This document shows, one piece after another, positions 24,055 to 61,147 of a stretch of DNA of 64,000 bases. The translations under genes and the position numbers were made by a program. Location of the stretch: positions 1 to 64,000 of the forward strand of contig JAGYJE010000005.1 in NCBI GenBank assembly GCA_018402305.1, read 5' to 3'. The notes beneath the pieces were generated by a model. The model did not search any database, was not told the origin of the DNA, and saw only the letters and a program-made list of their open reading frames with translations. Source of the stretch: Puniceicoccaceae bacterium (lineage in GTDB: Bacteria > Verrucomicrobiota > Verrucomicrobiia > Opitutales > Coraliomargaritaceae). The first letter of the stretch is position 1; each line of letters opens with the position of its first letter.

Positions 24055-24069
24055 GCTGAACAGTTGAAC
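24055..24069. promoter_or_regulatory. Putative LacI-family operator (site 1)
   Basis: GCTGAACAGTTGAAC; on the minus strand GTTCAACTGTTCAGC. It keeps the left half GTTCAAC and the central GT of the shared palindrome but has a weaker right half. It is 61 bp upstream of the GH13 start at 23,994. Confidence 0.55.
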
Positions 24070-24196
24070 GGAGGTTTTACCGAATAGCCGGACAATTGGA
24101 CTCGATCCTAAGCCGCCCCCCAGTTGCCTGTTCCTTCGCGGTCACGAAAAACCAACGACTGAGTTGTGCACTTAACACTGATCTGAAAAATAAAAA

Positions 24197-24397
24197 ATGA
24201 AAGTCCGAGACATATTGAGGCTACTGGCTGATGATGGCTGGGAGACGGTTCGGACCAAGGGGAGTCACAGGCAGATGAAGCACCCCCGGAAGAAGGGGAC
24301 CGTCACGGTTGCAGGTAAACGAAGTCTTGAGATTCCGGTCGGAACGCTTAAGAGTATTTATAAACAAGCTCAGATAGAAGGAAGGGAAGAAAAATGA
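24197..24397 (+). CDS. hicA: HicA-family mRNA interferase toxin
   Basis: A 66-residue protein with the double-stranded-RNA-binding-like HicA fold: VRDILRLLADDGWETVRTKG, then SHRQMKHPRKKGTVTVAGK, where the His of GSHRQ is the catalytic residue of the family, then EIPVGTLKSIYKQAQI. HicA toxins cleave mRNA. Its stop overlaps the hicB start by 4 bp (ATGA), the usual toxin-first order. Confidence 0.93.
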   Translation: MKVRDILRLLADDGWETVRTKGSHRQMKHPRKKGTVTVAGKRSLEIPVGTLKSIYKQAQIEGREEK

Positions 24398-24609
24398 AAT
24401 ATGCCGTCGTCATCGAGAGAGGAGATAGCTCCTTCGGGGCTTATGTCCCTGATTTACCTGGTTGTGTCGCCGTTGGAGAGACTCGCGAGGAAGCGATGAA
24501 CCTGATTCGCGAAGCGATCGAATTCCACTTGGAGGGCATGAAAGAAGATGGTGAGGGGATGCCTGAGCCCCACTCGGAAGCAGAGTATGTCGATGTGCTG
24601 ACCGCCTGA
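24394..24609 (+). CDS. hicB: HicB-family antitoxin
   Basis: A 71-residue protein starting MKYAVVIERGDSSFGAYVPD, followed by PGCVAVGETREEAMNLIREA and EFHLEGMKEDGE: the partial RNase H fold of HicB. It is the short form, lacking the C-terminal ribbon-helix-helix or HTH domain, so how the pair is autoregulated is not apparent. It neutralises HicA by direct binding (family knowledge). Confidence 0.92.
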   Translation: MKYAVVIERGDSSFGAYVPDLPGCVAVGETREEAMNLIREAIEFHLEGMKEDGEGMPEPHSEAEYVDVLTA

Positions 24610-24779
24610 TTCAGATCCAGTCGCTGGTGGTCAATTCCGTTCGCTCGTTCCTCGCTCACTTCATGCCACAGCTCACCGATATGCCAGAGAGTAACAATTA
24701 GGACACCCATTCGTTGACCCGAATTTTCCCTTCAACCTCAATTTGGTAGTCGTGAACTGCGTTTACTGGGTTCAAGGGC

Positions 24780-27700
24780 CTATTCCTCGACCAACTCCAC
24801 CCGGTAGAAGGACTGCTCCTGATCGAGGGTATCTTGAAGGGTCAGCACATTGTCCCCGGACTGGGCGGTAAAGGTGGTGACTTCTGGCCAAATTTCTGCG
24901 CCGATATCCGTGGACTTCCGCAGCCGATAGGTTTTCCCCGGCACCACGGGAAGATTCAGTTCCAGGGTTTCTCCGTTCACGATCCCCGAATCCAGGGTGA
25001 AAGACCGCTGGGGATCGAGACGGGCAAACGTTCCTTTGGATTCGGTGTCCATCAGGGCTTCCACCGGGAAGGCCATAAATTCGGCTGGTTCAAGATCCAT
25101 GTTCCCGTTCCCGTCCGGTGACTGACTGCCGATCACGCCGTCCACATCGGTCTGATAGGCCACCGCCGCAAGAAAGAGGTTGTCCGGCCTTTGGCCGAAG
25201 GCCTCCACCAGATCGAGGACGCCCTCCATGCGACCGCCCCCCTGATTATCGCGCCAGGACTCCGCACTTTCGGGACTGTTAAACCAGCTGATATAGTCGT
25301 TGTCGGACTCCGCGGCCAGGTAGGGCGCACCGGCCGGGTGGGCGGTATTCCCTGCTTTAGCCCAGGGGGCGGGGACCGATGCTGTGGATTCCAGGCGGTC
25401 GGAAACAAAAATCATATGATCGTTTGTTCCGCCTCCGGAGGGGGTCCAGGTTCCGACATACAGAAGGGTGCCCCGGACGGCGGCGTAGATTTTCATCCCC
25501 GGATTGTCCACCAGATACCCCGCCGGATCCTCTGGATCCCCGAGCACGAATCCCGGGGGCGTGGCGGGGGTGGTGACCAACACGGCGGCGGTGCGGGCGG
25601 AGGCCCCACCTTCATTTTCCGCGCGGACATCATAGCTGTGAGTGGTTTGCTGACTTAGACCGCTGTCGGTGAAGCTCGGATCCTTGGAAGTGCCAATGTC
25701 CTGATTGTCCCGGTAGATCCGGTACAGATCGGCGCCGGTTACGGCCTGCCATTGGATGCGGACCGTGGAGTCGCTGAGTGCTTCGGCGACCATTCCTGTG
25801 GGCATACCAGGGGCGGCTGGCGGGGCCGGGGTGGTGGCCGTGGCGGGCGGAGAGGGGGAAGAGTCGCCGTTAGAATTAAAGGCGGTCACCTCATAGGCGT
25901 ACTGCGTCTCCGGGAACAGCCCGGTGTCGGTGAAAAATCGTCCGGTCTGTTCCGCCACCGGATCGCCGTCCCGCAGCACCCGGTAGCCCTCCGCGCCGGC
26001 CACGGTGTTCCAGGACAGCTCCACCGAGGTGCTGCTGACCGCAGTCGCGGAGAGGGCGTCCGGGGTTTCGGGTGGGGAGGTGACCGCGCCGTCATCCTCC
26101 ACAAATACGTGCTGAATCTCCGACCGGTGCAGGTTTCCTTTGCTGTCTTCCGCCTCGATGTAGTAGTCGAGCAGTTTTCCGCGGAAGCCGGGAACGGAGC
26201 TGTTTGTGATGTGTACCACGTAATAATCCGCCAGTTCCGGCGGGGTGATAAAATAATTGATTTCCCCGTGATTGGCGGCGGCATTCAGGGAGGCCTGGTC
26301 GTTGGGCAGGGCCCGTTTGGTCATGGGAATGGAGATCCAGTCCCCCACACCCGCGCCACCTGCATAGAGTTCATTCGCGTTGTCCGCCAGCGGGTTGACG
26401 CCGTCCTCGTCCAGCCGAACCTTCAGGGTGACCGAGTCCACCCCGCTCACATCATAAGCATGGGTCCAGATGTAGAACTCCGAGGGCATCTTTTTCAGGT
26501 AGCTGGTGTTGCCACCGGGAATACTGTTGAACCATCCAAAGGTATAGCCGCCCGGATTGTAAGGGAAGCGCTGGGGCTTGAGCACGGTGGGCGGGGTGCG
26601 GTCGTTTTCGCGGCGGGCCGGGGTCATCCAGGGCTGAAGTTTTTGGATGGCGCGGGTGGTGGCGAGGGCGGGTTTGACCTCGTCGTCGTTGCCGAGGCCG
26701 CCGTAGTAGTTGAAGCCCGAGTCGAGACCTTTCAGGTAAATGTGCCAGGCCAGCTCGACATCGTTGGGCGCGGTCCAGGAGCCGTCCCAGTCGTAGGGAG
26801 CCTGAATTTTCCAGGCCTCGACCGAGCCGCCCTCATCGCGCAGAATCTGCTCGGCGGTCTCCACCCAGTTGGCCCCGGTGACGACGGGTGCCCAGCTCCA
26901 GAATTTGAGGGCGAAGCCGGGGGTCTCCATATCGACGAGGGTTCCCGGGTAGACGCTCTCACTGCCGGGAGCGGCCAATGGGGGCTCAATCCATTTCAGG
27001 AAATAGGGGGATCCGTAGTCGCTTTCCGGGAAGATCCACGCTCCGTCCTCAATGTGGGCCATGGGGGCGTTGGCGCCGTGGGCGTTAACGAAATCCTGCG
27101 GGGTGGTGGGCACATAGCCGGCGTTGGCCGAATCGTTAAAGAGTTGTGGGGTGGCCTCAAACCAAGAGCTGGAGCCGCCGCCCCAGGCATTGTCGCCGTC
27201 GGTGGAGGGCATGACCAGGACCGGGCGATTCGGGTCGGTGGCGTGGGGGGCGATGTGGTCGCTGATTTTGCCGATCCCCTCGTTGGAGTAGCCGTAGCGG
27301 TAGCTGAGCACGTCGTCCGAGGGCACGGCGATCATGGATTTTTCCGCCCCGGTCTCCGGGTTCACGTATTTGACCCGATGGAGTTGGTAGGCGTAGGGCG
27401 CTACATTCCAGGCCGCATTTCCGGGGTTGGGCTCGGCATACCACCAACCGGAGCTGGGGGAGGGCCCGAGGAGGTCGGCTTTATTGGGCGGGCTGGAGAA
27501 GATGTTGTAGTTGCCCGCTTCGAGATCGAACTGGTCGAAATAGGTCGGGCAGGTGCGGCTGATGTGGTGGCTGGGGACGATGACCCATTCATAGCCCTCA
27601 TCGACCAGCACATCCACGATGTGACGCGAGTAGGCCATTTCGGTGGGGAAGAAGCCCTTGGAGTGGTCGCTCAGGTCCGCGTTGCCGCCCCAGGCCTTCC

Positions 27701-28289
27701 ACCAGGCCTGTTTCAGGATCTGGATTTCCTTGCGGAGCACTTCTTTGGGGATGAGGGGTGCCAGGGAGTGGTGATAGGTGAAGCCGACCAGATCCAGGCG
27801 CGTGCTGCCAGCGGGCGTCGTCCACTGCCGGGCTTCCGAATTACCCCCGTTCCAGTTGCCGCCGTAGCCGAGGTGGCCGCCCCCGCCGAGCTGGCGGATG
27901 TTGTCGATCAGCGAGCCGGAGTAACTCATTGCGAATCCACCCCGGTTATCGAAAGAGGTCAACGAATTGCGCGGGCCGGACTGGTAGGCATTGCGGCGGT
28001 CGTCTTTGCCGAAGATGTCCTCCAGATTGTTTTCCGGGTGCTTGGAGCCACTGCCGTCGTAGGAGCGGTTGAACTTGAGGCTGATCGAGTCCCAGGCGTA
28101 TTCGGCGCGCTCGGTCTGGCCGCCGTTGCTGTTCCACTCCGGCCAGTAAAGCGGCTGGTGGTTGTGCCAGAAGCGGGAGACGTTGACGTTGTTGTTGGCG
28201 GCGAGGAAGGGGCTCGTTGCCCAGATGAGGCTGAGCAGGAGCAGCGCCATAAGGATGCTTCGGAAGTCGGGGTCGGATCGGGATGTCAT
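24780..28289 (-). CDS. Secreted GH57-like glycosidase with two FN3 domains
   Basis: A protein of 1,169 residues. The signal peptide is MALLLLSLIWATSPFLAANN. The catalytic part (~30-560) has GH57 landmarks: RFWHNHQPLYWPEW (the HxHQP region), GFFPTEMAYS with nucleophile candidate Glu217, and MPSTDGDNAWGGG with Asp364/Asp366 as acid/base candidates. Two fibronectin type III modules lie at about 740-910 (VELSWNTVAGAEGYRVLRDG and VRIQWQAVTGADLYRIYRDN). The C-terminal ~250 residues are beta-rich and end in LRKSTDIGAEIWPEV, then SFYRVELVEE, the closing module shared with its neighbours. GH57 enzymes act on starch, pullulan and glycogen. A putative operator lies 47 bp upstream. The exact specificity is unknown. 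Confidence 0.82.
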   Translation of the reverse strand: MTSRSDPDFRSILMALLLLSLIWATSPFLAANNNVNVSRFWHNHQPLYWPEWNSNGGQTERAEYAWDSISLKFNRSYDGSGSKHPENNLEDIFGKDDRRNAYQSGPRNSLTSFDNRGGFAMSYSGSLIDNIRQLGGGGHLGYGGNWNGGNSEARQWTTPAGSTRLDLVGFTYHHSLAPLIPKEVLRKEIQILKQAWWKAWGGNADLSDHSKGFFPTEMAYSRHIVDVLVDEGYEWVIVPSHHISRTCPTYFDQFDLEAGNYNIFSSPPNKADLLGPSPSSGWWYAEPNPGNAAWNVAPYAYQLHRVKYVNPETGAEKSMIAVPSDDVLSYRYGYSNEGIGKISDHIAPHATDPNRPVLVMPSTDGDNAWGGGSSSWFEATPQLFNDSANAGYVPTTPQDFVNAHGANAPMAHIEDGAWIFPESDYGSPYFLKWIEPPLAAPGSESVYPGTLVDMETPGFALKFWSWAPVVTGANWVETAEQILRDEGGSVEAWKIQAPYDWDGSWTAPNDVELAWHIYLKGLDSGFNYYGGLGNDDEVKPALATTRAIQKLQPWMTPARRENDRTPPTVLKPQRFPYNPGGYTFGWFNSIPGGNTSYLKKMPSEFYIWTHAYDVSGVDSVTLKVRLDEDGVNPLADNANELYAGGAGVGDWISIPMTKRALPNDQASLNAAANHGEINYFITPPELADYYVVHITNSSVPGFRGKLLDYYIEAEDSKGNLHRSEIQHVFVEDDGAVTSPPETPDALSATAVSSTSVELSWNTVAGAEGYRVLRDGDPVAEQTGRFFTDTGLFPETQYAYEVTAFNSNGDSSPSPPATATTPAPPAAPGMPTGMVAEALSDSTVRIQWQAVTGADLYRIYRDNQDIGTSKDPSFTDSGLSQQTTHSYDVRAENEGGASARTAAVLVTTPATPPGFVLGDPEDPAGYLVDNPGMKIYAAVRGTLLYVGTWTPSGGGTNDHMIFVSDRLESTASVPAPWAKAGNTAHPAGAPYLAAESDNDYISWFNSPESAESWRDNQGGGRMEGVLDLVEAFGQRPDNLFLAAVAYQTDVDGVIGSQSPDGNGNMDLEPAEFMAFPVEALMDTESKGTFARLDPQRSFTLDSGIVNGETLELNLPVVPGKTYRLRKSTDIGAEIWPEVTTFTAQSGDNVLTLQDTLDQEQSFYRVELVEE

Positions 28290-28335: not shown

Positions 28336-28350
28336 GCTTGACGGTTGAAC
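28336..28350. promoter_or_regulatory. Putative LacI-family operator (site 2)
   Basis: GCTTGACGGTTGAAC; on the minus strand GTTCAACCGTCAAGC. It lies 47 bp upstream of the GH57 gene start at 28,289. Confidence 0.65.
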
Positions 28351-28416: not shown

Positions 28417-31400
28417 TTACTCGACCACGATCCGATAGAATTTCTGATCCTCGGAGGGGGTTGGCTCGGTCCAGGTGCCGGAGGTGAGGCCGATGTCGGC
28501 GGTCGTCCACGAGGGGGCGGTCAAATCGGTCTTGCTTTGAATGGCGTAGGTTTTTCCGGATACGGGGTCCCAGGTGAGGGTGACATCGCCGTTCTTCCCG
28601 ATGGTATTGGAAGCGACTTCAAAGCGCGATGCGGCGCTGAGCGGGTTGCTGCCGGCGGCGTGTTCGTCGGCGTTGCTCTGGCCATCGCCGTCGTCGTCGG
28701 CGCTGCCGTCGAGCAGGGCGACGGTCTGGCTGACTGGGCTGGTCGGCCCGCTGTTGGCAGTGAAGTCGGGGTTGACGGCTTTGACCTCGATCGAGACGGT
28801 GTCGCCCTCGGCGGCGCTGACGGTGTGGCTGCTTTGCTCGGTGATGAAGGTCCCGGCGGGTGCGCCGTTGACGAAGACGCTGACTTCATAGGACGGAACG
28901 ACGCCGCCGTCGTCGGCGGGCAAGCTTTCCCAGTTGAAGCTGACGCTGTCTCCGATGGCGTAGGCGAAGGTGTTGGGCATTTCCGGTTGCTGGGGCGCAA
29001 TGATTGGTGCGGTCACGTCGTAGACCTTCAAAAACTGCGCCTCGAAGGGTGCGGTCTCCCAGGTGGCCTCATCGGCGGGCACCGGATTTAGCGAAACGAA
29101 GATGCCGTCGTTGCGGATGTCTTGTCCGTCGCGACCGGAGGCGCCCCATAGCCAATCGTCGCGGCGGCCGGGGAACTCGTTGAAGCGACCGGTGTAGGCG
29201 GCGATGTTTTTGGCATTGTAGCTGCGGCCCGGATCGATGCCAAGCTGGTCGGCGAGGCCGGAGGGGATACCGAAGGTGTCGGCGGATGTCGCGTCGCGGT
29301 TCAGGTTGACGAAGCCGATGACCACATCCTGCTCGGCAACGGGGGCGTTGGGCTCGGTGTATTTGGCCACGGCGTGGATTTCGTCGCGGGGTTGATCATC
29401 GGCCTGGCGGTTGAGGAACCAGCGGTTGTTAGAGCGCAGGGCGGGGCTGAATTGCCGCGCCTTGCCGATGGCGGAATAGACCGGGTAGAGGTGCTGCACG
29501 CCGAGGTCGTTAGTGTCCCAGGCGGTCCACTGCGGCTGCATGGAGTTCCACTTTTTGAAGTGGGGGATGTTCTTGCCGAAGTTCAGCTCGTAGTAGTCCC
29601 AAGAGCCCTGCGGCAGTGTCTCCTGCACCTTTTGGGCGGCACCGATTTCCTGGCCATACATGATCATGGGCACGCCGTCGTTGGCGCTGGCGGCGGCGTA
29701 GCGGATGAGGGGCTGCCAGGGGTCGGCCCAGGGCTCTTCGTCGTGGGAGAGATTGTTGAGTAGGACAAGGCTATCGCCATAGGCATCGCGTCGGGACTCG
29801 AAAATACCGCGGTAGCCCTGTGTGGTGGTGGCATCTTTGAAGGGAAAGACGATGTTTTCGTTGAGAATGGCAAAGTGGCGGCTGGAGCGGTAGGTGACTT
29901 GTTCGCCGTCGAGGCTCTCGCTCATGAAGACGAAATTCCATTTTGCGGAGTGGGTGCGGTTAATAATATACTCCATGGCCTGCGGCGGGAGTCCCTGTCC
30001 GAAGTCTTTGCGGAGCCCGTCAATGCCCGCGCGGTCGAGGGTGGTACGGGTTTCGGCGTCGCCGTCTGCGGGCGTGGAGTTGAACCCCCGGTGGCCGGAT
30101 TGTTCGATCCAGTAGGGCAGGACCTCGCCAAAGTAGCGCCAGACGTCGATGGTTTCCGGCCCCATGGAGTCGTAGAACATAAGGTCGTCCTCGTTGCGCA
30201 CGATCGCGCGGCTGGTTTCGGCGTCGGGGTAGCCGGTGACCAGGGTGGAGTAGTTGCCGAAGTAAACATCGCGCACGTCATTCCACTTGCCGAAGTCGTT
30301 GCGGTCGGGGGCCACGGCCAGACCGGCGGCGGACTGGGCGGGTGCGGAGTAGGCGGCCGGACCCTCGCCGCCGTTGGTGGAGAAGAACTGCGGCACCCGG
30401 TCGCGCATGAGGTCGCCCGGCTGCCAGCCGTCGGGGTTGCCGGCCGGGGCGAAGAGTTCGACCCCCTTTTCGGCCAGCACGACGTCCGGTGCGGTGTGGT
30501 TGAAGGGGAAGTCGAGCATCAGGTTGACCCCGGCGGTATCCGATGCTGCGGCAAAGTTTTGGAAGGCCTGCATGGCGGCGGCGTAGTTATCCGGGTTACT
30601 GACCGGATCCGTCAGGCCCCCGTTGTATTGCGCGGAGTAGAGGGGGTTGATTTCCCAGAAATTGCGAATGGAGTAGGGGCTGCCCGGATCGTAGGCGCTG
30701 CCTGTGGCCGGATCGGTTTCCCGTCCGTCGAGGCCCTGCGGGTGGAAGGGCTGGAACCAGATCCAGTTGAGCCCGAGATTGTTCAGCCAATCCAGGTTGA
30801 CCCGGGCGTTGGGATCGTGCAGATCCTCGAAGGTGCCCCGCTCGGCAAAGCTGGGCCCGGTGGCGTTGGCGTTGGTGACGTGGAGCTCATACATCGTCAT
30901 ATCGCGGGCGAGGGTCGGTGCCACCACCACGGCGAGGTCGCGGATGCCCTGATCCCGGAGCCAGGTCCACTCGGTGTCGCCGTCGTTCTTATAGCGGGCG
31001 GTCACGCGGTAGGCCCCGGTTTTTTCGACCGGCAAGGTAAGGGTGTAGTTGCCGCTGCCATCCGGTGCCATGGCATGGGCCTGGAAATAGCTGTCGGTAT
31101 CGGCAAGGGTGATCGTGTTGCCGTCCGGCGGAATGATGCCGTCTTCGATGCCGTCGCCGTCCCAGTCGTCGTCGGCGCGGTCGCGGTTGTTCAGGTTGGT
31201 GAAAATCTGGACGTCGGTGGCGCTGGGAACGCCGGGGTCGAGGACGAGTTCGAGCTGGGGAAAGTCGAGGTCACGGACCTCGTCGATGTAGAAGTTAAGG
31301 GTGGCATAGTTTGCGTTAGTGCCGTTGGCGGAGAGGGAGGCGGAACCGGATGAGGAGGTCGGCCCCACGGCAAAGCTATAGGGGGCCGCCTCGGCGTCGG

Positions 31401-31845
31401 CCTGGAGAAGGGACTTGGCATTGCCCTGATCCTCGCCGGATTCGGTGCCTTTGTAGAGGTAGGTGTTGTCGCGGTTGTCGAAGGTAACGAAGAAGTAATA
31501 CTGCACTTGAGCCCCGACATCGGAGGGCAGGCTCAGGTCGGCCTTCCAGAATTGGAGACTGCCAGCGTCGTTATTGAAGCCCAAGCTTATCGACTGCCAG
31601 ACCCCGTCGTTGATCCTGTAGTAAAAGGTGCCGCCGGTCTGGTTGGCACCCTCGAATTTGTTGACGCCCTGGTAGAAGGTGGCAGCGGTGTTGATCCCGG
31701 GGAATAGCGGGTCGCGCATGGTCGTGCCGCCGAGTTCGGCGCGGGCGTCGGACGGTGTGTGCCAGATATCCTCGAACTGGGCAAAAGCCGAGGTCGCGCT
31801 GAAGAGGGTAACAAGGAGGAGAAAGATACGGAGGTGCGGAATCAT
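28417..31845 (-). CDS. Secreted multidomain GH13 enzyme
   Basis: A protein of 1,142 residues with signal peptide MIPHLRIFLLLVTLFSATSA. N-terminal beta modules (~25-300) include FYYRINDGVWQSISLGFNND and a starch-binding-like segment. The GH13 barrel covers ~320-850: MTMYELHVTNANATGPSFAE, NWIWFQPFHPQGLDG, LMLDFPFNHTAPD, nucleophile Asp614 in IDGLRKDFGQG, acid/base Glu643 in FMSESLDG and Asp702 in NLSHDEEPW. RKD replaces the common RxD-hydrophobic form, marking a divergent subfamily. After an FN3-like region (~940-1040) comes an acidic TSP3-like calcium motif (DDDGDGQSNADEHAAGSNP) and a closing module. An operator lies 132 bp upstream, and the gene forms its own unit. Confidence 0.85.
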   Translation of the reverse strand: MIPHLRIFLLLVTLFSATSAFAQFEDIWHTPSDARAELGGTTMRDPLFPGINTAATFYQGVNKFEGANQTGGTFYYRINDGVWQSISLGFNNDAGSLQFWKADLSLPSDVGAQVQYYFFVTFDNRDNTYLYKGTESGEDQGNAKSLLQADAEAAPYSFAVGPTSSSGSASLSANGTNANYATLNFYIDEVRDLDFPQLELVLDPGVPSATDVQIFTNLNNRDRADDDWDGDGIEDGIIPPDGNTITLADTDSYFQAHAMAPDGSGNYTLTLPVEKTGAYRVTARYKNDGDTEWTWLRDQGIRDLAVVVAPTLARDMTMYELHVTNANATGPSFAERGTFEDLHDPNARVNLDWLNNLGLNWIWFQPFHPQGLDGRETDPATGSAYDPGSPYSIRNFWEINPLYSAQYNGGLTDPVSNPDNYAAAMQAFQNFAAASDTAGVNLMLDFPFNHTAPDVVLAEKGVELFAPAGNPDGWQPGDLMRDRVPQFFSTNGGEGPAAYSAPAQSAAGLAVAPDRNDFGKWNDVRDVYFGNYSTLVTGYPDAETSRAIVRNEDDLMFYDSMGPETIDVWRYFGEVLPYWIEQSGHRGFNSTPADGDAETRTTLDRAGIDGLRKDFGQGLPPQAMEYIINRTHSAKWNFVFMSESLDGEQVTYRSSRHFAILNENIVFPFKDATTTQGYRGIFESRRDAYGDSLVLLNNLSHDEEPWADPWQPLIRYAAASANDGVPMIMYGQEIGAAQKVQETLPQGSWDYYELNFGKNIPHFKKWNSMQPQWTAWDTNDLGVQHLYPVYSAIGKARQFSPALRSNNRWFLNRQADDQPRDEIHAVAKYTEPNAPVAEQDVVIGFVNLNRDATSADTFGIPSGLADQLGIDPGRSYNAKNIAAYTGRFNEFPGRRDDWLWGASGRDGQDIRNDGIFVSLNPVPADEATWETAPFEAQFLKVYDVTAPIIAPQQPEMPNTFAYAIGDSVSFNWESLPADDGGVVPSYEVSVFVNGAPAGTFITEQSSHTVSAAEGDTVSIEVKAVNPDFTANSGPTSPVSQTVALLDGSADDDGDGQSNADEHAAGSNPLSAASRFEVASNTIGKNGDVTLTWDPVSGKTYAIQSKTDLTAPSWTTADIGLTSGTWTEPTPSEDQKFYRIVVE

Positions 31846-31976: not shown

Positions 31977-31991
31977 GTTCAACGGTCAAAT
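31977..31991. promoter_or_regulatory. Putative LacI-family operator (site 3)
   Basis: GTTCAACGGTCAAAT, 132 bp upstream of the GH13 gene start at 31,845. The right half is CAAAT rather than GAAT but keeps the central GT. Confidence 0.65.
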
Positions 31992-40579: not shown

Positions 40580-40662
40580 TGTGAGGGGCAGCCTGTGGCT
40601 GCAATGGGTTTCTAAGATGTGTGAATCTAAACGACAATTCCGAGAGATAAAGGGCAGGGGTC

Positions 40663-40677
40663 GTTCAACAGTCGAAT
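40663..40677. promoter_or_regulatory. Putative LacI-family operator (site 4), divergent promoter
   Basis: GTTCAACAGTCGAAT, with near-perfect dyad symmetry GTTC.AC.GT.GAAT. It lies 84 bp upstream of the giant amylase and 48 bp upstream of the lacI-type gene, so it could serve both and provide autoregulation. Confidence 0.78.
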
Positions 40678-41771: not shown

Positions 41772-41781
41772 TCGGGCTGAT

Positions 41782-45421: not shown

Positions 45422-45468
45422 TTAGGACTACCATAGCGCCTCGCTTTAAAAACCCAAACCCCCTTTTT

Positions 45469-45483
45469 GTTCAACTGTCCAAC
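45469..45483. promoter_or_regulatory. Putative LacI-family operator (site 7), divergent promoter
   Basis: GTTCAACTGTCCAAC, 48 bp from the TonB-like gene (minus) and 78 bp from the GH13 operon (plus). It is identical to site 8. Confidence 0.78.
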
Positions 45484-45560
45484 AGGGGAGGCTTAGCGAT
45501 TGCCCGAAGAATCGTTCTACTCGCAACCACCTCGCCATTGTTGAACCCTTTATTTACACC

Positions 45561-53361: not shown

Positions 53362-54428
53362 AAGCACGCACTCATCTTCTCTCCGTGAGCCTGATCTGTT
53401 TGCTCGTCGGAAGCCTAATGCCGGTTTGCGCAATCGCTGCGGAGTTCCCCGTGCGTTTGCAGTATCCAACGCGGACTGTTGACATTATTCTAACCGGGCT
53501 GGAAGGGGGTTCTATCGTTTTTCGCCCGGTTGAGCGCGACACCGGAGGGCGGGCCTTCCTGGCCATCCCGGATCTTTTGCGGGAGGATGTTGCAGTTGAA
53601 TTTATTTTCCCCAAGGCTTTTAACGACGCAATCAAGGAGGTAGGGCAGGGCAGAGCGGCTCAAGCCTTGCCAACCCTTGGTCAATACGTCGAACCGCTGA
53701 CCGAATATCTGGCGATGAGCGAAATCCCTGGAAACATGGTGCCGGTGGTCATCGCCTATTTGGATGCATTAGCGGCTGCTGCTGAATGGAAGAAGGCGAC
53801 CGAGGTTGCGCTCCAAATTCCGCTGGCGGACGCGCCCCCGGTAGCGCTCGACCGGGCGGGTGAACTCGTGCTCGCTCTTGATAGTGCCGGCGAGGCCGCC
53901 CTGACCGAGCGCCTGCAACGGAAGCTGTTCGGTCTTCGTGATCTAGACCTGCCGAAACTGCAAAGTCTCATGGCGCTGGCAAATGAATGGCGGCGGCGTG
54001 GGAATTATCTGCGGGCGTTTGAACTGTATCGGAAGGTTCAGGGGATCGAAAGTCCGCTTCGCGTTGAAGCGCGGCTTTGGGTCGCCTATAGCAGTTTCTA
54101 TCTAGGGCACGAAGTCATTCCCGAAGTCTTTCTTGAGGTGCTCCCCGAGATGGAAGTGGACAGCGAAGGGTATCCGCTTTGCGAATTGATCAAGGCGCGG
54201 ATGCGCGTCCGCGAGGGCGATTTTCCCGCTGCCATGCGTGCGGCCGCCATGGCCCGCGTCTATGCCGATCCCACGGATCCCTTCTATGCAGAGTTGCTCC
54301 ACATTGTAGCCACGCTCTACACAGAGTTGAGCATCACCGAAGCTGCTCAGACCGCACACCAAGAGCTGATTCTGCTTTTCCCGAATACGACGTGGGCCGC
54401 CAAAAGCCGGGAACTACTGACACATTAA
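53358..54428 (+). CDS. Exported helical-repeat protein
   Basis: A 356-residue protein. The GTG start overlaps the preceding stop (GTGA). Signal peptide LLSVSLICLLVGSLMPVCAI. The N-terminal ~75 residues form a small beta segment (VDIILTGLEGGSIVFRPVER); the rest is TPR-like (ALPTLGQYVEPLTEYLAMSE, RRRGNYLRAFELYRKVQGIE, LLHIVATLYTELSITEAAQT). No named family. It lies 17 bp upstream of ExbB and probably works with the preceding TPR protein in the envelope. Confidence 0.72.
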   Translation: MKARTHLLSVSLICLLVGSLMPVCAIAAEFPVRLQYPTRTVDIILTGLEGGSIVFRPVERDTGGRAFLAIPDLLREDVAVEFIFPKAFNDAIKEVGQGRAAQALPTLGQYVEPLTEYLAMSEIPGNMVPVVIAYLDALAAAAEWKKATEVALQIPLADAPPVALDRAGELVLALDSAGEAALTERLQRKLFGLRDLDLPKLQSLMALANEWRRRGNYLRAFELYRKVQGIESPLRVEARLWVAYSSFYLGHEVIPEVFLEVLPEMEVDSEGYPLCELIKARMRVREGDFPAAMRAAAMARVYADPTDPFYAELLHIVATLYTELSITEAAQTAHQELILLFPNTTWAAKSRELLTH

Positions 54429-54445
54429 AAACCACCCTCAACACT

Positions 54446-55225
54446 ATGAAGACAATGAGAACCCCGAAAAATCAACTAGCCGCAAAGGCCCTCATCCTGA
54501 CTCTGCTGAGCCTGAGCGGGAGCCGCCTGATTGCGCAATCCGAAACTGTCGCTGAGGTCGCACCCGCCGAAGACGTCATTACCCTTTGGACAATGTTCCA
54601 GCAGGGTGGTTGGGCGATGTATCCCCTGCTTGCCTTTTCCGTGGCCCTGGTTGGCCTGGCGGGCTACTGTGCTATGCTCATCCGCGAGAAACGATTCGTC
54701 CAACCGGAAGCACTGGACGACCTTCGGGCAGCTATTCGCGAGGGCGATGCGGAGGCTGGCCAACGCGCCTGTGAAGCCCATCCTGGCTACATGACCGATG
54801 TTCTCAAAGCAGGCTTCGGCGCGGTGCAGGATGGGTATGCCACACCGGCTGCGGTTAACGAGGCCCTTGAGGAGCGTGCCAGCAAAGTCCTCGCGTCGCC
54901 CCTTGTATTTGTGCAATACCTACAAGTCATTGCGTCCGTTTCGCCCATGATGGGGCTCCTCGGAACGGTTAGTGGTATGGTCAAAGCCTTTCGCAATATT
55001 GCCGCGCAGGGGCTGGGCAAACCGGAGCTTTTGGCCAACAACATTTCAGAGGCATTGGTCACCACCGCCACGGGTTTGCTCATTGCGATCCCTGCCCTCA
55101 TGGCTTATTTCTTCTTTAAAAACAAATACACGGCTGCTTCATCGGGTATCTACGAGTGTGTTGGTTCACTCACCCGACTCATGACGAAGCATGGAATGAT
55201 CAAAGACGATTCAAAAGCCGCCTGA
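54446..55225 (+). CDS. MotA/TolQ/ExbB family proton-channel protein
   Basis: Starting at ATG 54,446 gives 259 residues; a longer frame reaches into the preceding gene and is rejected. An N-terminal signal-like segment (ALILTLLSLSGSRLIAQ) precedes the usual three helices: GGWAMYPLLAFSVALVGLAG, a pair around SVSPMMGLLGTVSGMVKAF, and EALVTTATGLLIAIPALMAY. The last two are the family diagnostic. Paired with two ExbD genes, so it likely energises glucan transport. The N-terminal extension before the first helix is common in ExbB homologues of non-enteric bacteria. Confidence 0.93.
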   Translation: MKTMRTPKNQLAAKALILTLLSLSGSRLIAQSETVAEVAPAEDVITLWTMFQQGGWAMYPLLAFSVALVGLAGYCAMLIREKRFVQPEALDDLRAAIREGDAEAGQRACEAHPGYMTDVLKAGFGAVQDGYATPAAVNEALEERASKVLASPLVFVQYLQVIASVSPMMGLLGTVSGMVKAFRNIAAQGLGKPELLANNISEALVTTATGLLIAIPALMAYFFFKNKYTAASSGIYECVGSLTRLMTKHGMIKDDSKAA

Positions 55226-55265
55226 TCGCCACACCATAAACCTCTTTGACTAAAAAAAACCTCTA

Positions 55266-55676
55266 ATGAAACCAATCGCCCAGGAAGCTAGCACGGATCT
55301 GCCGGATCTGACTCCCATGATCGATATCGTGTTTTTGCTGATCGTTTTCTTCATGACAGTGGCGAACATGCAGGTCTTGGAGCGGGTTCCCATCGATGTG
55401 CCCATCGCTGAGGCGGCGACTCTTCCGGAGGACCGTGGCGGGCGGATCATCGTCACAGTGAAAGAGGACGGCACGGTGTTTTTCGGCCCCCGATCCGTGC
55501 TCATGGAGGACCTGGCCGCTTTGATCGAGCAGGGGAAGGGCGCGAACCTCGGCATAAAAGTCTACGTGCGGGCCGATGCCAATGTCCCCTTCAAAGAGGT
55601 CCGCGAGGTCTTTGCGGCGGCGGCCGAGGGCGGCGTCCCCAATGTTGTCTTTGCCACTTTTCAGAGCGATAAATAA
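55266..55676 (+). CDS. ExbD/TolR family protein (first copy)
   Basis: A 136-residue protein with the ExbD hallmark DLTPMIDIVFLLIVFFMTVA, where the TM Asp takes part in proton conduction. It is followed by VPIDVPIAEAATLPEDRGGR and the periplasmic fold IIVTVKEDGTVFFGPRSVLM, then IKVYVRADANVPFKEVREVF. It lies 41 bp after ExbB. Confidence 0.95.
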   Translation: MKPIAQEASTDLPDLTPMIDIVFLLIVFFMTVANMQVLERVPIDVPIAEAATLPEDRGGRIIVTVKEDGTVFFGPRSVLMEDLAALIEQGKGANLGIKVYVRADANVPFKEVREVFAAAAEGGVPNVVFATFQSDK

Positions 55677-55685
55677 CTACTTCCC

Positions 55686-56117
55686 GTGAGAGTTAAACGA
55701 TTAAAAATCCCCGAGGACCGCGTCGATTTGACACCGATGATCGACATCGTCTTCCTCCTCCTTATCTATTTCATGGTGACCACCACAATCGTAAAAGAGG
55801 AGGCGGATCTTGGGGTAAAATTGCCCTCCAGCATGGCGGCTCCACCCGACACTCCGCTACCCGAGCAGCACTACATCGACATTCTGATCGATGGCACTGT
55901 TTTGCTCAACGGGATGCCGATGGATAATCCCAACCAGCGCTCGCTGCCCAATCTGACCCGGACTCTTGCCCAGATCAAACAGTCTTCCGACCGCGCCGGA
56001 TTAAAGACACTCGTGATCATTCAACCCGATGCGGAAACCTATCAGCAAAGCGTGGTGAATGTGCTCAATGCCCTGAAAGAAGTTGGCATACGCTCGATCT
56101 CATTCGGAGAGGGCTAG
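55686..56117 (+). CDS. ExbD/TolR family protein (second copy)
   Basis: A 143-residue protein with a GTG start. DLTPMIDIVFLLLIYFMVTT gives the TM helix with the conserved Asp; LGVKLPSSMAAPPDTPLPEQ and VIIQPDAETYQQSVVNVLNA form the periplasmic part. Two different ExbD subunits beside one ExbB suggest a mixed ExbD dimer in the motor, since ExbB pentamers house an ExbD dimer (family knowledge). Operator site 8 follows 4 bp after the stop. Confidence 0.94.
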   Translation: MRVKRLKIPEDRVDLTPMIDIVFLLLIYFMVTTTIVKEEADLGVKLPSSMAAPPDTPLPEQHYIDILIDGTVLLNGMPMDNPNQRSLPNLTRTLAQIKQSSDRAGLKTLVIIQPDAETYQQSVVNVLNALKEVGIRSISFGEG

Positions 56118-56120: not shown

Positions 56121-56135
56121 GTTCAACTGTCCAAC
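56121..56135. promoter_or_regulatory. Putative LacI-family operator (site 8)
   Basis: GTTCAACTGTCCAAC, 49 bp upstream of the secreted-protein/malQ/MFS genes. It allows a second promoter inside the plus-strand cluster. Confidence 0.75.
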
Positions 56136-56183: not shown

Positions 56184-57026
56184 TTGAAAAAATACCTCAC
56201 AGAACCACCCCGCTTCAGGCATCTTTGGCTTGTCATACTTCCGCTGCTAGCCTGCGGGCAGAGCTACATTGCCTCCGAGGATGAGGCATTCTACGATGCT
56301 TATTCCGACGGATGGACGACCGGCGATAACGGCGGGCGCGGCTTCGGCGAGTGGCGTTTACTGGCGCCCGAATATCTTTCGGAGAACGCGGAGCGGTATG
56401 CCGGATTTTTCATTGCGGACGCATCCGTCGAAGCGGATCTGACTAGAAGTGCCCGCGAGGGTCGAGCCTTTGGTATCTTTGCGAACGGGATCGGCTTTGA
56501 GGAAACGGTCGCTTTTCGCTCTTTTGATCGGCCTCTGGGGGTCGGGGATGTATTCTCCATGCGTTTTGAATTTGATGGCTTTGCCAAGAAATTTGAGAGC
56601 GATTCAGGGGAGGGTGTCAGCTCCGTGGGTGTGGCGTTGAGAACCAGTTCCGAAGTGGAGGACCTGAAGGCGCTGGCGCGGGGCCGCGCGGTCGTTCTTG
56701 CCGTGATCGAGGGCTTGAGCACTTACCAGATCCTCGATGCGGACGGTCGCCACAACACCCGGGTCTTTCTCGATACAGCAGGTGTGGAACTTGGCTTCAC
56801 CCTGCGCGATGAAGGGCGCTACGATTTGCAAATTACAAGGCTAAGCGATCAGGTTGCGCACCATTTCGAAGGACGGCGCTTGCTTACGGAAAGCGCCGCC
56901 AAGGACCCGGAGCCGACGGTTGGAAGTAGTCCACAGGCTTTTGCGATTTTCAACCTGAATGGCGGACGGCACAACGTCTACTCGGGAGCTTTTCAAATCT
57001 CCAGGAAGGAGCGCAACACACCATGA
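56184..57026 (+). CDS. Secreted jelly-roll-like protein related to the PEP-CTERM protein at 43,379
   Basis: A 280-residue protein with a TTG start, chosen because MKKYLTEPPRFRHLWLVILP gives a signal peptide. The body parallels the 43,379 product (SDGWTTGDNGGRGFGEWRL, AFGIFANGIGFEETVAFRS, YDLQITRLSDQ) but has no PEP-CTERM tail, ending in FQISRKERNTP. It overlaps malQ by 4 bp (ATGA). It may be the periplasmic or released form of a surface glucan-binding family; function unknown. Confidence 0.68.
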   Translation: MKKYLTEPPRFRHLWLVILPLLACGQSYIASEDEAFYDAYSDGWTTGDNGGRGFGEWRLLAPEYLSENAERYAGFFIADASVEADLTRSAREGRAFGIFANGIGFEETVAFRSFDRPLGVGDVFSMRFEFDGFAKKFESDSGEGVSSVGVALRTSSEVEDLKALARGRAVVLAVIEGLSTYQILDADGRHNTRVFLDTAGVELGFTLRDEGRYDLQITRLSDQVAHHFEGRRLLTESAAKDPEPTVGSSPQAFAIFNLNGGRHNVYSGAFQISRKERNTP

Positions 57027-58618
57027 GGGAGGCAGCGATACCTTCGCTTTTTAACCGGGATTGTGGTATTCTGCTGCATCCCTCTTCCTTGCCCTGCGAA
57101 TTCGGGATTGGCGATTTCGGACCCTGCGCATTACGCTGGCTCGACCAATTGGCTGCGAATTGGCAAAACCTTTGGCAGATATTGCCGCTAAATCCGGCGG
57201 GCTACGGGGATTCGCCGTATCAAAGCCTTTCCGCGTTCGCGGCGAATAATGCCTTCCTCAGTCCAGAGGCGCTCCATGAGTCGGGCTTGATTAACGACGT
57301 TGAGCTGGAATCGCTGCGTCTCCCAAATGGATTCCCGGTGGATTATGCGGCCGTCTATGCCAACAAACTTGAGCTGGCGGCGCGGGCCGCCCGTCGGTTT
57401 TTTGGCTTGGATAAGCAAGATCCCCAGCGCCTCGCCTTTGCTGATTTCCTGCGCGGCGAAGCCGATTGGCTTGAGCCATTTGCACTCTTCAGCGCACTTA
57501 AATCAAAATTCGGGGGTGTGGCGTGGACGCGATGGCCCAGGGCTTATCGTGATAGAAACCCAGAGGTGCTGGAGGCGGCAAAGGTTGAGTTGGCCGAGGA
57601 CATCCAGCGGATCTATTTCGAGCAATTTCACCTCTCCAAACAATGGAGGCGCGTGCGCTGGCGTGCCGAGGAATTGGGCATCCGCATTATCGGCGATCTA
57701 CCTATCTTCGTCGCCCATGACAGTGTCGATGTCTGGTGTCGCCCCGAGCTCTTTCGATTGTCCGCCGATGGGAACCCCCGGGTTGTGGCGGGTGTACCTC
57801 CGGATTATTTTTCCTCCACAGGTCAGCTTTGGGGGAATCCCCTTTACGATTGGGAAGCCCATGGCGCGACAGATTTCAGCTGGTGGCGCGCCCGCCTGCG
57901 GAAGGTGCTGGACTGGGTGGATATCGTTCGGATCGACCATTTTCGCGGTTTTGACGCTTGTTGGGAGATTCCCGGCGAGGCGGCGACCGCGATGAACGGT
58001 CGGTGGGTTCCCGCACCAGGGTGGAAGCTTTTTGAGGCCTTCGCCGCCGACCTCGGCTACCCACTCCCGGTTATCGCTGAAGACCTTGGGGTCATCACGC
58101 CGGAGGTGGTGGCACTGCGCGATGCCTTTCATCTGCCGGGCCTGCGCATCGAGCAGTTCGCTTTTGGCTCCGACGCGATGAAGGATACCTTTTTGCCTGA
58201 CTCCTACGATGGCAACTGCGTCGCCTACACAGGAACGCACGACAATGACACCGTAATCGGCTGGTTCAATAGTCAACCGGGAATCGACAGTACGCGAGAT
58301 GCGCAGGCAATTGAGGAAGAGCGGGTGGCGGCGTTGGCCTATTTCGGGGGTGATGGCTCGCGTATCCATTGGGATTTCATTGAAAAGCTTTATCATTCTG
58401 CGGCGGGCGCTGCACTCATGCCAGTGCAGGATATACTTGGCCTTGGTTCCGAGGCGCGCATGAATACCCCGGGCACGGCTTCGGGGAGTTGGGGCTGGCG
58501 AATCACCGACGAGTCTGCTTTGCAATCTGCCCTCGCACTTCTTAGCGCCGTAACCGTTGCCTCGGGGCGTGGTTTGGCTGCAGAACCAGTCGTCCAATCA
58601 ATATCCGGGCCCCCCTGA
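57023..58618 (+). CDS. malQ: 4-alpha-glucanotransferase (amylomaltase, GH77)
   Basis: A 531-residue protein of typical bacterial GH77 length with no signal peptide, so cytoplasmic. Motifs: GILLHPSSLPCEFGIGDFG, WQILPLNPAGYGDSPYQSLS, IRIIGDLPIFVAHDSVDVW, nucleophile Asp in DIVRIDHFRGF, acid/base Glu in LPVIAEDLGVIT, and GTHDNDTVIGWF. It disproportionates imported maltodextrins, making longer chains for phosphorylase and releasing glucose. Its place between the secreted protein and the MFS transporter fits intracellular processing of imported oligosaccharides. Confidence 0.96.
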   Translation: MREAAIPSLFNRDCGILLHPSSLPCEFGIGDFGPCALRWLDQLAANWQNLWQILPLNPAGYGDSPYQSLSAFAANNAFLSPEALHESGLINDVELESLRLPNGFPVDYAAVYANKLELAARAARRFFGLDKQDPQRLAFADFLRGEADWLEPFALFSALKSKFGGVAWTRWPRAYRDRNPEVLEAAKVELAEDIQRIYFEQFHLSKQWRRVRWRAEELGIRIIGDLPIFVAHDSVDVWCRPELFRLSADGNPRVVAGVPPDYFSSTGQLWGNPLYDWEAHGATDFSWWRARLRKVLDWVDIVRIDHFRGFDACWEIPGEAATAMNGRWVPAPGWKLFEAFAADLGYPLPVIAEDLGVITPEVVALRDAFHLPGLRIEQFAFGSDAMKDTFLPDSYDGNCVAYTGTHDNDTVIGWFNSQPGIDSTRDAQAIEEERVAALAYFGGDGSRIHWDFIEKLYHSAAGAALMPVQDILGLGSEARMNTPGTASGSWGWRITDESALQSALALLSAVTVASGRGLAAEPVVQSISGPP

Positions 58619-58657
58619 TTTATTGTCTGTTTTCCCTAACCCCATAAAAAAAATCAA

Positions 58658-60430
58658 ATGAAGAAGCCTAACTTATCTTTTTGGCAAATTTGGAACATGA
58701 GCTTCGGCTTTTTTGGTATTCAGTTCGGATTCGCTCTGCAGAACGCCAATGTAAGCCGGATATTCGAGACGCTCGGAGCGGATCTCAAAGCCATTCCCAT
58801 CCTCTGGATCGCGGCCCCCTTGACGGGCCTCATCGTGCAGCCGATTGTCGGTTATTTCAGCGACCGCACCTGGTGTCGCCTGGGGCGGCGCCGTCCGTAT
58901 TTCCTAGTCGGGGCGATCTGTGCCTCGATCGCTCTCCTGATCATGCCGAATTCGCCCGTGCTCTGGATCGCAGCCGGGATGCTTTGGATCATGGATGCCT
59001 CGATCAATGTGTCGATGGAGCCATTTCGGGCGTTCGTCGGCGATCAGTTGCCCTCCGAGCAGCGCACGCGGGGTTTTGCCATGCAGAGCTTTTTCATCGG
59101 TGCCGGTTCGGTCATTGCCTCGGCGTTGCCCTACATGCTGACCAATTGGTTCGGTGTCTCCAACGTCGCTCCCGAGGGAGTCATTCCGGACTCGGTAAAA
59201 TGGTCCTTCTACTGCGGCGCGGTGGTCTTTCTGTTGGCGGTGCTTTGGACAGTTTACAAAAGCCGCGAATACAGCCCGGAAGAACTCGCAGCCTTCGAGG
59301 GGAAAAAGCCGGTCGAGGATGCGGCCGAGGTGCGTGCACGTCTCGATAGTGAATCGAGCTCCGCGAATGAGCGGATGCGACGTCAATCGGCCCATGGTCC
59401 GCTTTTTCTCATTGGAGGGCTCGTTCTTTCGGCGCTGGTCTACGTTCTTGGATGGGAGAAGGAGCTGTTCATTGTGACCGGGGGCTTCTGCGCGCTCGGT
59501 CTGCTTTTACTCGTTGCGACTGCCCTCCAGAAAAAAGGGATCCGCTCAAACGGTTTGGTCGTTGTGATGGACGATCTCTATGCGATGCCGAAGACCATGA
59601 AGCAGTTGGCCATTGTCCAATTCTTTTCCTGGTTTGCCCTGTTTTCGATGTGGATCTACACAACTGCCGGCGTCACCAGCCACCTTTACGACATGCGACT
59701 AACGGCCGCCGAAGTCACGACCTTGCAGCAAACTGCGGCATCGATGGGGGCAGGCGATGCGTCTGCCGACTGGGGCTCCGCCTACGCCGGTGTGGTCCGC
59801 GACCTCGAGGCCTACCGTGGAGAGATCGCCGGAGGGGCCGAATCGGTTGTCAGCAGCATGCGGACCGTTAATTTCTTCATCACCCACGGGACAGCCGTGG
59901 GGCTCTCGGATGCTATGCGCGAGCGCCTTCTGCATGTTCAGCAAGAATACAATACCGGTGCGGACTGGGTGGGGATCGCTTTCGCGGTCTATAACGGTTT
60001 CGCTGCCCTCATTGCCTTTGCGCTGCCGGTCGTCGCAAAGTGGACAAGCCGGAAGGTAACCCATGCGCTCGCGCTTCTTATCGGAGCGCTGGGCTTGGTC
60101 TCCGTTTATTTCCTGCCTGGGCCCAACTGGATGATTCTCTCGATGCTCGGCGTGGGCGTAGCCTGGGCGAGCATTCTTTCGATGCCTTATGCGATCCTCT
60201 CGGGTGCGGTGCCTGGTGAAAAAATGGGACTCTACATGGGCATCTTCAATTTCTTCATCGTCTTACCGCAGATGCTGGCGGCCAGTATCCTCGGTGTCCT
60301 TGTGCAAGGACTGTTTGGCGGCGAGGCAGTGCTCGCGCTTATTCTCGGCGGTTTAACCTGGATTGTGGCGGCTGTGCTGACGCTCTTTGTTGACGATGTC
60401 GATACCCTTGGGCAAGCGGCTCGTAGTTGA
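58658..60430 (+). CDS. MFS transporter, probable maltose/maltodextrin:H+ symporter
   Basis: A 590-residue multi-pass protein. The beginning (SFWQIWNMSFGFFGIQFGFA, LQNANVSRIFETLGAD) and LTGLIVQPIVGYFSDRTWCR, then LGRRRPYFLVGA match the GPH/SUC-like MFS group, which includes sucrose and maltose carriers. A long hydrophilic stretch at ~200-250 and another at ~350-410 separate helix groups, so it is larger than the ~450-residue norm. Helices at the C-terminus include MLAASILGVLVQGLFGGEAV. It follows malQ by 39 bp and should bring the products of the secreted amylases across the inner membrane. Confidence 0.87.
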   Translation: MKKPNLSFWQIWNMSFGFFGIQFGFALQNANVSRIFETLGADLKAIPILWIAAPLTGLIVQPIVGYFSDRTWCRLGRRRPYFLVGAICASIALLIMPNSPVLWIAAGMLWIMDASINVSMEPFRAFVGDQLPSEQRTRGFAMQSFFIGAGSVIASALPYMLTNWFGVSNVAPEGVIPDSVKWSFYCGAVVFLLAVLWTVYKSREYSPEELAAFEGKKPVEDAAEVRARLDSESSSANERMRRQSAHGPLFLIGGLVLSALVYVLGWEKELFIVTGGFCALGLLLLVATALQKKGIRSNGLVVVMDDLYAMPKTMKQLAIVQFFSWFALFSMWIYTTAGVTSHLYDMRLTAAEVTTLQQTAASMGAGDASADWGSAYAGVVRDLEAYRGEIAGGAESVVSSMRTVNFFITHGTAVGLSDAMRERLLHVQQEYNTGADWVGIAFAVYNGFAALIAFALPVVAKWTSRKVTHALALLIGALGLVSVYFLPGPNWMILSMLGVGVAWASILSMPYAILSGAVPGEKMGLYMGIFNFFIVLPQMLAASILGVLVQGLFGGEAVLALILGGLTWIVAAVLTLFVDDVDTLGQAARS

Positions 60431-60473
60431 TTAATTCTGTAGCCAAACGCCTTTGCGTTTTGACCGGTCAAGT

Positions 60474-61085
60474 TCACCAGGTCTTGGGATCATCCTCAGC
60501 TTCGTCCTTGCGCCAATCCTTGCCGTCTGGACCACGCGACCAAACGATAACCGTATCGCCAATCCACACTTGATCGTCCTCCGGATTATCGAGGTGAATT
60601 TCGAGAAAACGGGGAATGCGGCCGTCGTTGTTCACGTCCAACTTAAACTTGTAGGGATTACCCCAGGGGTCGACGATATGGCCATCGATGATTTTTTCGT
60701 CAGGGAAGGGAGCGAAGGGGACTCGTTGCGGGTTGCGTGCACGCCCGTCGGCATCGTAGCCCGGTTCTCCTTTAAACATGCTGGTAATGAAATCCCATAC
60801 CTGCTCACCATCTGAAAACTCCGCGTCTTTACCCCAATCCTCTTGGCCAGGGGTGTTGCTGCCGAAGATCTTTCCGTTTGTCGTGGGCCATTGACCATAG
60901 GTCGCGTAATAAAGGCCGAAGGCGTTCTTGATAGTGCGCGCATCGGCAGTTGCTTCGGCGATTAAAGCCCCATCACGGACTTTTGAGACCGCCGGGATCA
61001 ATATAGCGACGAGAAGTCCCACAACTGCCAGAGTGACGAGCAACTCAAGTAGGGTGAACCCGCGGGCTAGAGGCTTTTCAAGCAT
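60474..61085 (-). CDS. Type IV-type prepilin / GspG-like pseudopilin
   Basis: A 203-residue protein from ATG 61,085. The prepilin signature is GFTLLELLVTLAVVGLLVAI (cleavage before F, Glu at +5), followed by LIPAVSKVRDGALIAEATAD. The C-terminal part (IVDPWGNPYKFKLDVNNDGR, then VWSRGPDGKDW) is the calcium-binding GspG-like fold. No other secretion gene is near. An exact match to the operator left half lies 48 bp upstream, suggesting it is co-regulated with the amylases and may help secrete them through a type II system or form a surface pilus. Confidence 0.88.
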   Translation of the reverse strand: MLEKPLARGFTLLELLVTLAVVGLLVAILIPAVSKVRDGALIAEATADARTIKNAFGLYYATYGQWPTTNGKIFGSNTPGQEDWGKDAEFSDGEQVWDFITSMFKGEPGYDADGRARNPQRVPFAPFPDEKIIDGHIVDPWGNPYKFKLDVNNDGRIPRFLEIHLDNPEDDQVWIGDTVIVWSRGPDGKDWRKDEAEDDPKTW

Positions 61086-61132
61086 GGTCAAAGGTTAATC
61101 AAAGCCATCATTGACTGGCAAGGACGCAACTC

Positions 61133-61147
61133 ATTGGACAGTTGAAC
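61133..61147. promoter_or_regulatory. Putative LacI-family operator (site 9)
   Basis: ATTGGACAGTTGAAC; reverse complement GTTCAACTGTCCAAT, one base different from sites 7 and 8. It lies 48 bp upstream of the pseudopilin start. Confidence 0.72.

Follow-up and report, generated by a model that had tools for sequence, protein, structure and literature searches.

Which regulator, if any, reads a 15-bp palindrome that recurs nine times in front of genes for alpha-glucan use in a Puniceicoccaceae bacterium? The stretch concerned (hereafter the window) comprises 64,000 bases of assembly GCA_018402305.1 (contig JAGYJE010000005.1, positions 1 to 64,000; C45:1-64000 in our numbering), from a genome of 3,125,301 bases in 76 contigs that is 90% complete, and it encodes a LacI-type protein at 40725-41771. 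A first-pass annotation, made from the letters of the window, had proposed that the nine palindromes define an alpha-glucan regulon of this protein, and that proposal was supported, as the sites cluster in the window locus and stand before lacI orthologs and orthologs of the target genes in relatives. Judged from sequence, the sites are predicted operators of the 40725-41771 protein, which would be autoregulated and would control a starch/maltodextrin regulon (probability about 0.84). As the palindrome recurs before the same genes in relatives, the nine sites are very probably docking sites of one LacI-type switch.

Nine palindromes in the window and their scores

All nine copies of the palindrome reported in the first-pass annotation were found. 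When scored with a symmetrised matrix of 17 columns, built only from these nine sites, they ranged from 15.1 to 23.3, with nothing else in the window above 10.0 and the best place in the first 24 kb, previously said to hold no convincing copy, at 9.25. These matrix scores use a background of 58.7% G+C and the later ones, those for relatives among them, one of 55%, a change worth at most about 1 bit. The highest-scoring predicted operator (40663-40677; 23.3) lies in the divergent promoter region of lacI and a giant GH13 gene, and is followed by those before a 202-aa PEP-CTERM-like gene (43333-43347; 22.7), in the divergent promoter region of a 381-aa gene and a 1,580-aa GH13 gene (45469-45483; 22.0), before a 258-aa PEP-CTERM-like gene (44247-44261; 20.7), before a lone pseudopilin gene (61133-61147; 20.7), before a 280-aa gene, malQ and an MFS gene (56121-56135; 20.4), before a GH13 cyclomaltodextrinase-like gene (24055-24069; 20.3) and before a 1,142-aa gene (31977-31991; 19.7). 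The ninth, before a GH57 gene (28336-28350; 15.1), is a weak candidate operator.

Searching the window with RTTCAACNGTNGAAY and up to two mismatches gave 17 strand-wise matches, corresponding to the nine places (eight on both strands), compared to 3.54 ± 2.23 (maximum 10) in 100 shuffles. With a leave-one-out matrix, eight of the nine sites had at most 0.03 expected matches per 64 kb at their own score; two of them (45469 and 56121) have an identical 15-mer, so this scoring is not fully independent. The shared GTTCAAC-N-GT of the earlier description holds for eight sites, but 44247 carries ATTCAAC, and at 26523 there is one more exact GTTCAAC-N-GT, with no right half. All nine have a C-N-G centre and are thus odd palindromes.

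The closeness of the sites to genes stood, but the distances required correction by one base: the gap to the nearest start codon is 46-131 bases (not 47-132), the cluster of about half of the sites at 47-49 bp became 46-48 bases in five of the nine, and the site upstream of lacI, 40663, is present with a gap of 47 rather than 48 bases. The gap for 24055 was counted from the start at 23994, not from the longer open reading frame (ORF) start at 24048. Flanked by lacI on one side and by the divergent giant GH13 gene (likely start 40579) on the other, 40663 may serve both.

Good sites were also found to be concentrated in the window locus when the whole genome was searched by pattern and the matches then scored. 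The pattern RTTNNACNGTNNAAY occurred at 11 places, seven of them between 31977 and 61147 (29 kb), with five for the reversed pattern; an all-letters pattern derived from the nine sites, which match it by construction, occurred at 20 places, 11 of them outside the nine, with eight for its reversal. On the 15 core columns of the matrix, eight window sites scored 17.8-21.7 and 28336 scored 15.5, and the best of 18 sites outside the window (pattern matches plus picks from this genome, rather than a full matrix scan) reached 16.3.

Conservation of the sites before orthologous genes

Orthologs of the lacI gene were sought in 43 genomes of the family, our own included, and were found in 15, with the 14 others at 57-75% identity and the next best protein at 38%. 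The relatives include a Verrucomicrobia metagenome-assembled genome (L008, apparently G055) and a Puniceicoccaceae assembly (L009, apparently G009), and only the G055 and G009 versions enter the counts. Of one set of 37 regions, 36 had been picked for a pattern match and are biased (the other, from G012, was taken for a lacI remnant). The match count and promoter-region test were made on lacI-bearing contigs, contigs picked by MalQ are reported apart, and scores for the 381-aa/1,580-aa GH13 promoter come from loci picked by homology to the 381-aa protein. The site ranges for homologs of the 202-aa PEP-CTERM-like and 280-aa genes, the stray matches in G003 and G020 and the L008 pseudopilin draw on data that include match-picked regions. 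The relatives are kin to one another, so conserved sites are not independent events.

The lacI contigs of the 14 relatives (352,122 bases) contained 51 matches scoring at least 15 with the window-only matrix, where about 1.2 were expected from a random-sequence model (derived from the 58.7% G+C version of the matrix) and 500 column-permuted matrices averaged 1.45 (maximum 17). The matches fell before the predicted targets: 31 of 39 target promoter regions scored at least 15 (35 of 39 at least 12.5), compared to 4 of 99 starts of genes without a window homolog and two of the 51 starts that belong to other window homologs. GH13-1580 matches below 45% identity and LacI matches below 50% were placed in the 'other' group, and genes starting outside the fetched segment were left out. 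On the same 39 promoters, 1000 permuted matrices gave a mean of 0.16 and a maximum of 15, never 31.

The best conserved target was the divergent promoter of the 381-aa and 1,580-aa GH13 genes, which scored 19.0-21.9 in all nine relatives with this promoter on the contig (ten relatives have an ortholog-level 381-aa protein, and in G020 the promoter is off the contig). Some targets carry the site on contigs other than that of lacI, as does this promoter in G042. Ortholog-level 381-aa proteins were found in 11 of the 43 genomes, all 11 with a lacI ortholog, and ten loci of distant 381-aa homologs showed no site above 11.7. Homologs of the 202-aa PEP-CTERM-like gene were preceded by sites of 15.5-21.8 in ten relatives, on some contigs picked for the match.

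Two types of MalQ were distinguished. One, the window type (64-67% identity), was present in five relatives and our own genome; these 6 of the 22 genomes all have a lacI ortholog. The gene or operon of this type had best sites of 20.0 in our own genome, 18.3 in G007, 17.6 in G008 and 16.0 in both G044 and G048. The second type (about 40-47%) had no site above 8.5 at the 19 loci scored; in all, 25 of 28 MalQ matches were scored for an upstream site. Glycogen phosphorylase was considered as a further regulon member and rejected, since related sites precede it in G007, G010 and G001 but also in the ortholog-free G012, and our own glgP scored 8.7. The glycogen phosphorylase promoters L144, L147 and L153 were observed to share a similar site, as does that of the regulator-free G012.

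The LacI-type protein and its promoter

The predicted binder of the sites is a 348-aa protein (40725-41771, forward strand) with an N-terminal LacI helix-turn-helix (HTH; PF00356, 40.1 bits against a cut-off of 27). No effector-domain Pfam model matched the protein alone at 0.001; a profile of 13 orthologs and six paralogs matched LacI-family chains in the PDB nearly end to end, across both the HTH and the C-terminal effector core of the periplasmic-binding-protein-like kind (5ysz over 2-313 and 1efa over 4-311 of 339 positions). The recognition and hinge region is nearly invariant among the orthologs, G020 excepted. The ortholog L158 of G049 contains a TAG stop close to the C-terminus.

A site scoring at least 12.5 was found within 260 bases upstream of 14 of the 15 lacI orthologs, our own included (13 of 14 in relatives), with its start 59-77 bases before the first aligned codon in 13 of the 15. 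Autoregulation is predicted from these sites; of the members covered by a 2014 survey, 72% are autoregulated (PMC4052901). Eleven LacI paralogs had no upstream site, the best place scoring 9.7. Most relatives (12 of 14) carry more than one site at the lacI promoter, either two or three, with spacings of, for example, 32 or 46 plus about 121 bases. Seven of these promoters (G042, G044, G048, G049, G050, G051 and G008) have three sites each, compared to one in the window, and five of the seven show spacings close to 46 and 121-124 bases.

These results leave little room for the palindromes being products of chance or of repeats with no regulatory meaning, which we regard as highly improbable. 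Site 28336 taken alone is within chance and isolated good matches do occur at unrelated places; for the set, chance is excluded by the shuffles, the permuted matrices, the homology-picked promoters and the paralog controls, and it is contradicted by the conservation before orthologous genes.

The protein itself scored only 22.4 bits against the MalI subfamily model NF007449 (cut-off 310), and its nine predicted operators are all odd, in place of the even palindrome with central CG that is typical of LacI operators. Given the odd operator, the LacI HTH, the profile matches to solved LacI-family chains and a score far under the MalI cut-off, the protein appears to be a non-canonical LacI-family member with an unusually surface-oriented predicted regulon. 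The predicted operator is a split form of the CG-centred core, with AAC-N-GTT in place of AACGTT.

Whether an odd operator is a rule of the LacI subfamily was considered, and only a hint emerged: among 69 upstream regions of paralogs, an odd AC-N-GT palindrome was found in five and an even palindrome centred between C and G in five, three of the latter being ACGT. An odd palindrome of any kind was found for 20 paralogs (16.0 ± 3.5 in shuffles) and an even one for 15 (15.9 in shuffles). The odd AC-N-GT occurs upstream of L020, L022, L211, L222 and L251 and the even ACGT upstream of L021, L231 and L249; the L020 and L021 sites have a common half-site, CTTTAC, to which L020 adds the extra central base that L021 lacks.

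How the predicted operators may act

Proteins of this kind usually repress their targets until a malto-oligosaccharide relieves the repression. Here, a dimer of the LacI-type protein would read the 15-bp odd palindrome, with the ideal form GTTCAAC-N-GTTGAAC and the core AAC-N-GTT, close upstream of start codons. The regulon would comprise its own lacI gene, the secreted GH13 and GH57 enzymes, the PEP-CTERM-like proteins, the TonB-like protein, malQ with the MFS transporter and the lone pseudopilin. Operator binding would repress these targets and a malto-oligosaccharide would release the regulator. Four points of this reading are inferred, namely the 40725 protein as the binder, dimeric binding, repression, and release by a malto-oligosaccharide.

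It is rather unlikely, though the likeliest of the alternatives weighed here, that the linked protein binds the sites and activates its targets, or mixes activation with repression. In 40500-45700, none of the sites was seen to overlap a sigma-70-like promoter, so repression by occlusion draws no support from promoter positions, and the multiple sites (two or three) that 12 relatives carry at the lacI promoter would permit more complex control. Most LacI-family members are repressors, which counts against activation. So do the gaps of 46-131 bases, which fit the range of 30-140 bases before the start codon that holds more than 75% of LacI-family sites in the survey (PMC4052901).

Observations that weigh against the regulon

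Several observations count against control of these genes by the linked LacI-type protein. Within the window, site 28336 had a leave-one-out expectation of 0.87 per 64 kb, and a 994-aa GH13 gene (10305-13289) has no operator-like site. The matrix imposes AC-N-GT, so the invariance of this core in relatives is partly forced. Eight target promoters scored below 15, namely five before genes for the 258-aa PEP-CTERM-like protein, one 280-aa leader (14.7) and the lacI promoters of G009 (12.8) and G020 (10.7); the counterpart of site 44247 before the 258-aa gene is kept in some relatives on the lacI contigs and scores below 13 in five. The malQ leader site is only partly and weakly conserved, with poor sites for the window-type gene or operon in G001 (14.8), G005 (10.7) and G009 (5.6), none of three MalQ-picked contigs reaching 15, and 5.6-16.0 upstream of the 280-aa homolog in six relatives.

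The relatives offer no clear counterpart of sites 24055, 28336 and 31977, and these three may be local additions. Before the GH13 cyclomaltodextrinase-like gene no counterpart of 24055 scored at least 12.5 in relatives. In the eight relatives with contigs long enough to include this block (G001, G005, G008, G042, G044, G048, G050 and G055), the giant GH13, 1,142-aa and GH13 genes keep that order on a single strand behind the sites next to lacI; in the window, the latter two genes and GH57 have their own sites. The nearest candidates for a counterpart are matches within the giant GH13 ORF, at its 3' end and 249 bases upstream of the 1,142-aa ORF (15.7 in L008/G055 and 13.3 in G008), where coding conservation could be the cause of the matches.

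Good matches were also found away from the regulator or the targets. A site of 15.9 precedes glycogen phosphorylase in G012, which has no lacI ortholog, one of 20.6 falls within a coding ORF of G020, and pattern matches in G003 reached core scores of 20.5, 17.2 and 17.1. G003 has no close full-length lacI ortholog and only fragments at contig edges, one of them 58% alike over the HTH. The best G003 site (L105, G003:C273, 3553; score 21.6) lies between two genes with no window homolog or resemblance. Raw pattern counts in G001, G003, G004 and G005 were under those of the reversed control, and since the reversed control was commoner in some genomes, raw counts were rejected as evidence in relatives.

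The matches in G003 bear on a second alternative, in which the sites belong to another regulator (a LacI paralog elsewhere or a protein of another family) that simply counts the linked lacI gene among its targets. Our own genome has 10 LacI-family matches in all, and the strong G003 sites occur with no close full-length ortholog, though with the HTH-bearing fragment at a contig edge. Against this alternative, the 381-aa and lacI orthologs co-occur in 11 of 11 genomes and none of the 11 paralogs has an upstream site. The best scored pattern matches in the other three of four ortholog-free genomes peak at 17.6 (G004), 16.6 (G012) and 16.9 (G021), G003 being the exception, and G001, which has a lacI ortholog, has five sites with core scores of at least 18.9. 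We consider another regulator unlikely, somewhat more so than activation, and retain the linked LacI-type protein as the predicted binder.

Genes downstream of the sites

The genes to the left of lacI lie on the reverse strand. They encode a secreted GH13 enzyme, cyclomaltodextrinase-like (22192-23994; PF00128, 4.5e-46; start set at a signal-like peptide), a secreted GH57 protein with fn3 (24780-28289; PF03065, 5.6e-13; PF00041, 1.3e-12; signal-like N-terminus by eye), a 1,142-aa secreted protein with weak GlgX resemblance (28417-31845; TIGR02100, 17.3 bits, under the cut-off) and the giant secreted GH13 protein (32057-40579; PF00128, 1.3e-13; signal-like start at 40579).

To the right of lacI, the reverse strand encodes the 202-aa PEP-CTERM-like protein (42641-43249; C-terminal PEP tail by eye), the 258-aa PEP-CTERM-like protein (43379-44155; NF038126, 26.5 bits, under the cut-off of 50; PEP tail by eye) and the 381-aa protein (44276-45421), which matched no family model and is TonB-like by eye and a putative ExbB/ExbD partner by context; ExbB and/or ExbD matches adjoin 8 of its 10 distant homologs. 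Two exosortase-family genes were observed on another contig of our own genome (G000:C56), in keeping with PEP-CTERM-like proteins in the regulon.

The forward strand then encodes the 1,580-aa GH13 protein (45561-50303; PF00128, 1.5e-53; PF16561, 2.9e-10), a run of TPR, 356-aa, ExbB, ExbD and ExbD genes (50293-56117; PF13174, PF01618 and PF02472 twice; no family match for the 356-aa protein) and the 280-aa gene, malQ (GH77) and the MFS transporter (56184-60430; PF02446, 5.4e-161; PF07690, 1.2e-25; no family match for the 280-aa protein). A second TPR/ExbB gene set, at 4062-13289 together with the 994-aa GH13 gene, lies in the window with no operator-like site.

The lone pseudopilin is encoded on the reverse strand (60474-61085; TIGR02532, 27.8 bits against a cut-off of 16.3; GspG model 52 bits, under its cut-off of 88.85). 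A lone pseudopilin-type gene adjoins an operator-like site in three genomes (the window at 60474-61091, L008 12595-13362 and L078, G001:C99, 3254-3706), which suggests a pilus-like part in starch use.

Comparison with known systems

The odd palindrome had been called less usual for the LacI family, and this agrees with the available part of the 2014 survey, in which 1251 of 1303 motifs are even and 4% odd; 'verrucomicrob' is absent from that part of its text (PMC4052901). Among the literature matches listed, none named a prior regulon of this kind. The predicted regulator, motif and regulon would form a triple for a phylum of polysaccharide degraders, would tie the 381-aa, 280-aa, 246-aa and PEP-CTERM-like proteins and the pseudopilin to starch use, and would provide a motif with which further regulon members could be found.

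With MalR, MdxR and MalI, which the survey names (PMC4052901), the system shares a LacI-family HTH, predicted autoregulated control of genes for malto-oligosaccharide use and sites near start codons; the predicted sites here lie upstream of GH13 genes and, in the malQ operon, of its 280-aa gene. It differs in that the protein is far under the MalI cut-off and in that the predicted regulon adds giant secreted enzymes, PEP-CTERM-like and TonB-like proteins and a pseudopilin. With LacR, GalR and EbgR it shares an odd palindrome with one base between half-sites, whereas the genes controlled are others and the conserved core is 15 bp, compared to 17, 19 or 21 in the survey (PMC4052901).

The locus may be an undescribed starch-capture machine of Puniceicoccaceae-like Verrucomicrobiota, a proposal that we hold tentatively and think less probable than not to be right as a whole, in which giant secreted amylases would work with PEP-CTERM-like surface proteins and a pseudopilin, draw power through a TonB-like protein with TPR/ExbB/ExbD/ExbD in place of SusCD, and be switched together by a LacI subfamily with a one-base-split AC-N-GT core. 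No SusC/SusD or TonB-receptor Pfam family matched in the 28 window ORFs scanned. In the Sus system of Bacteroidetes, a single locus combines secreted amylases with a regulator of its own and an energising part of the ExbB/ExbD type; so does the window locus, but with a regulator of the LacI type.

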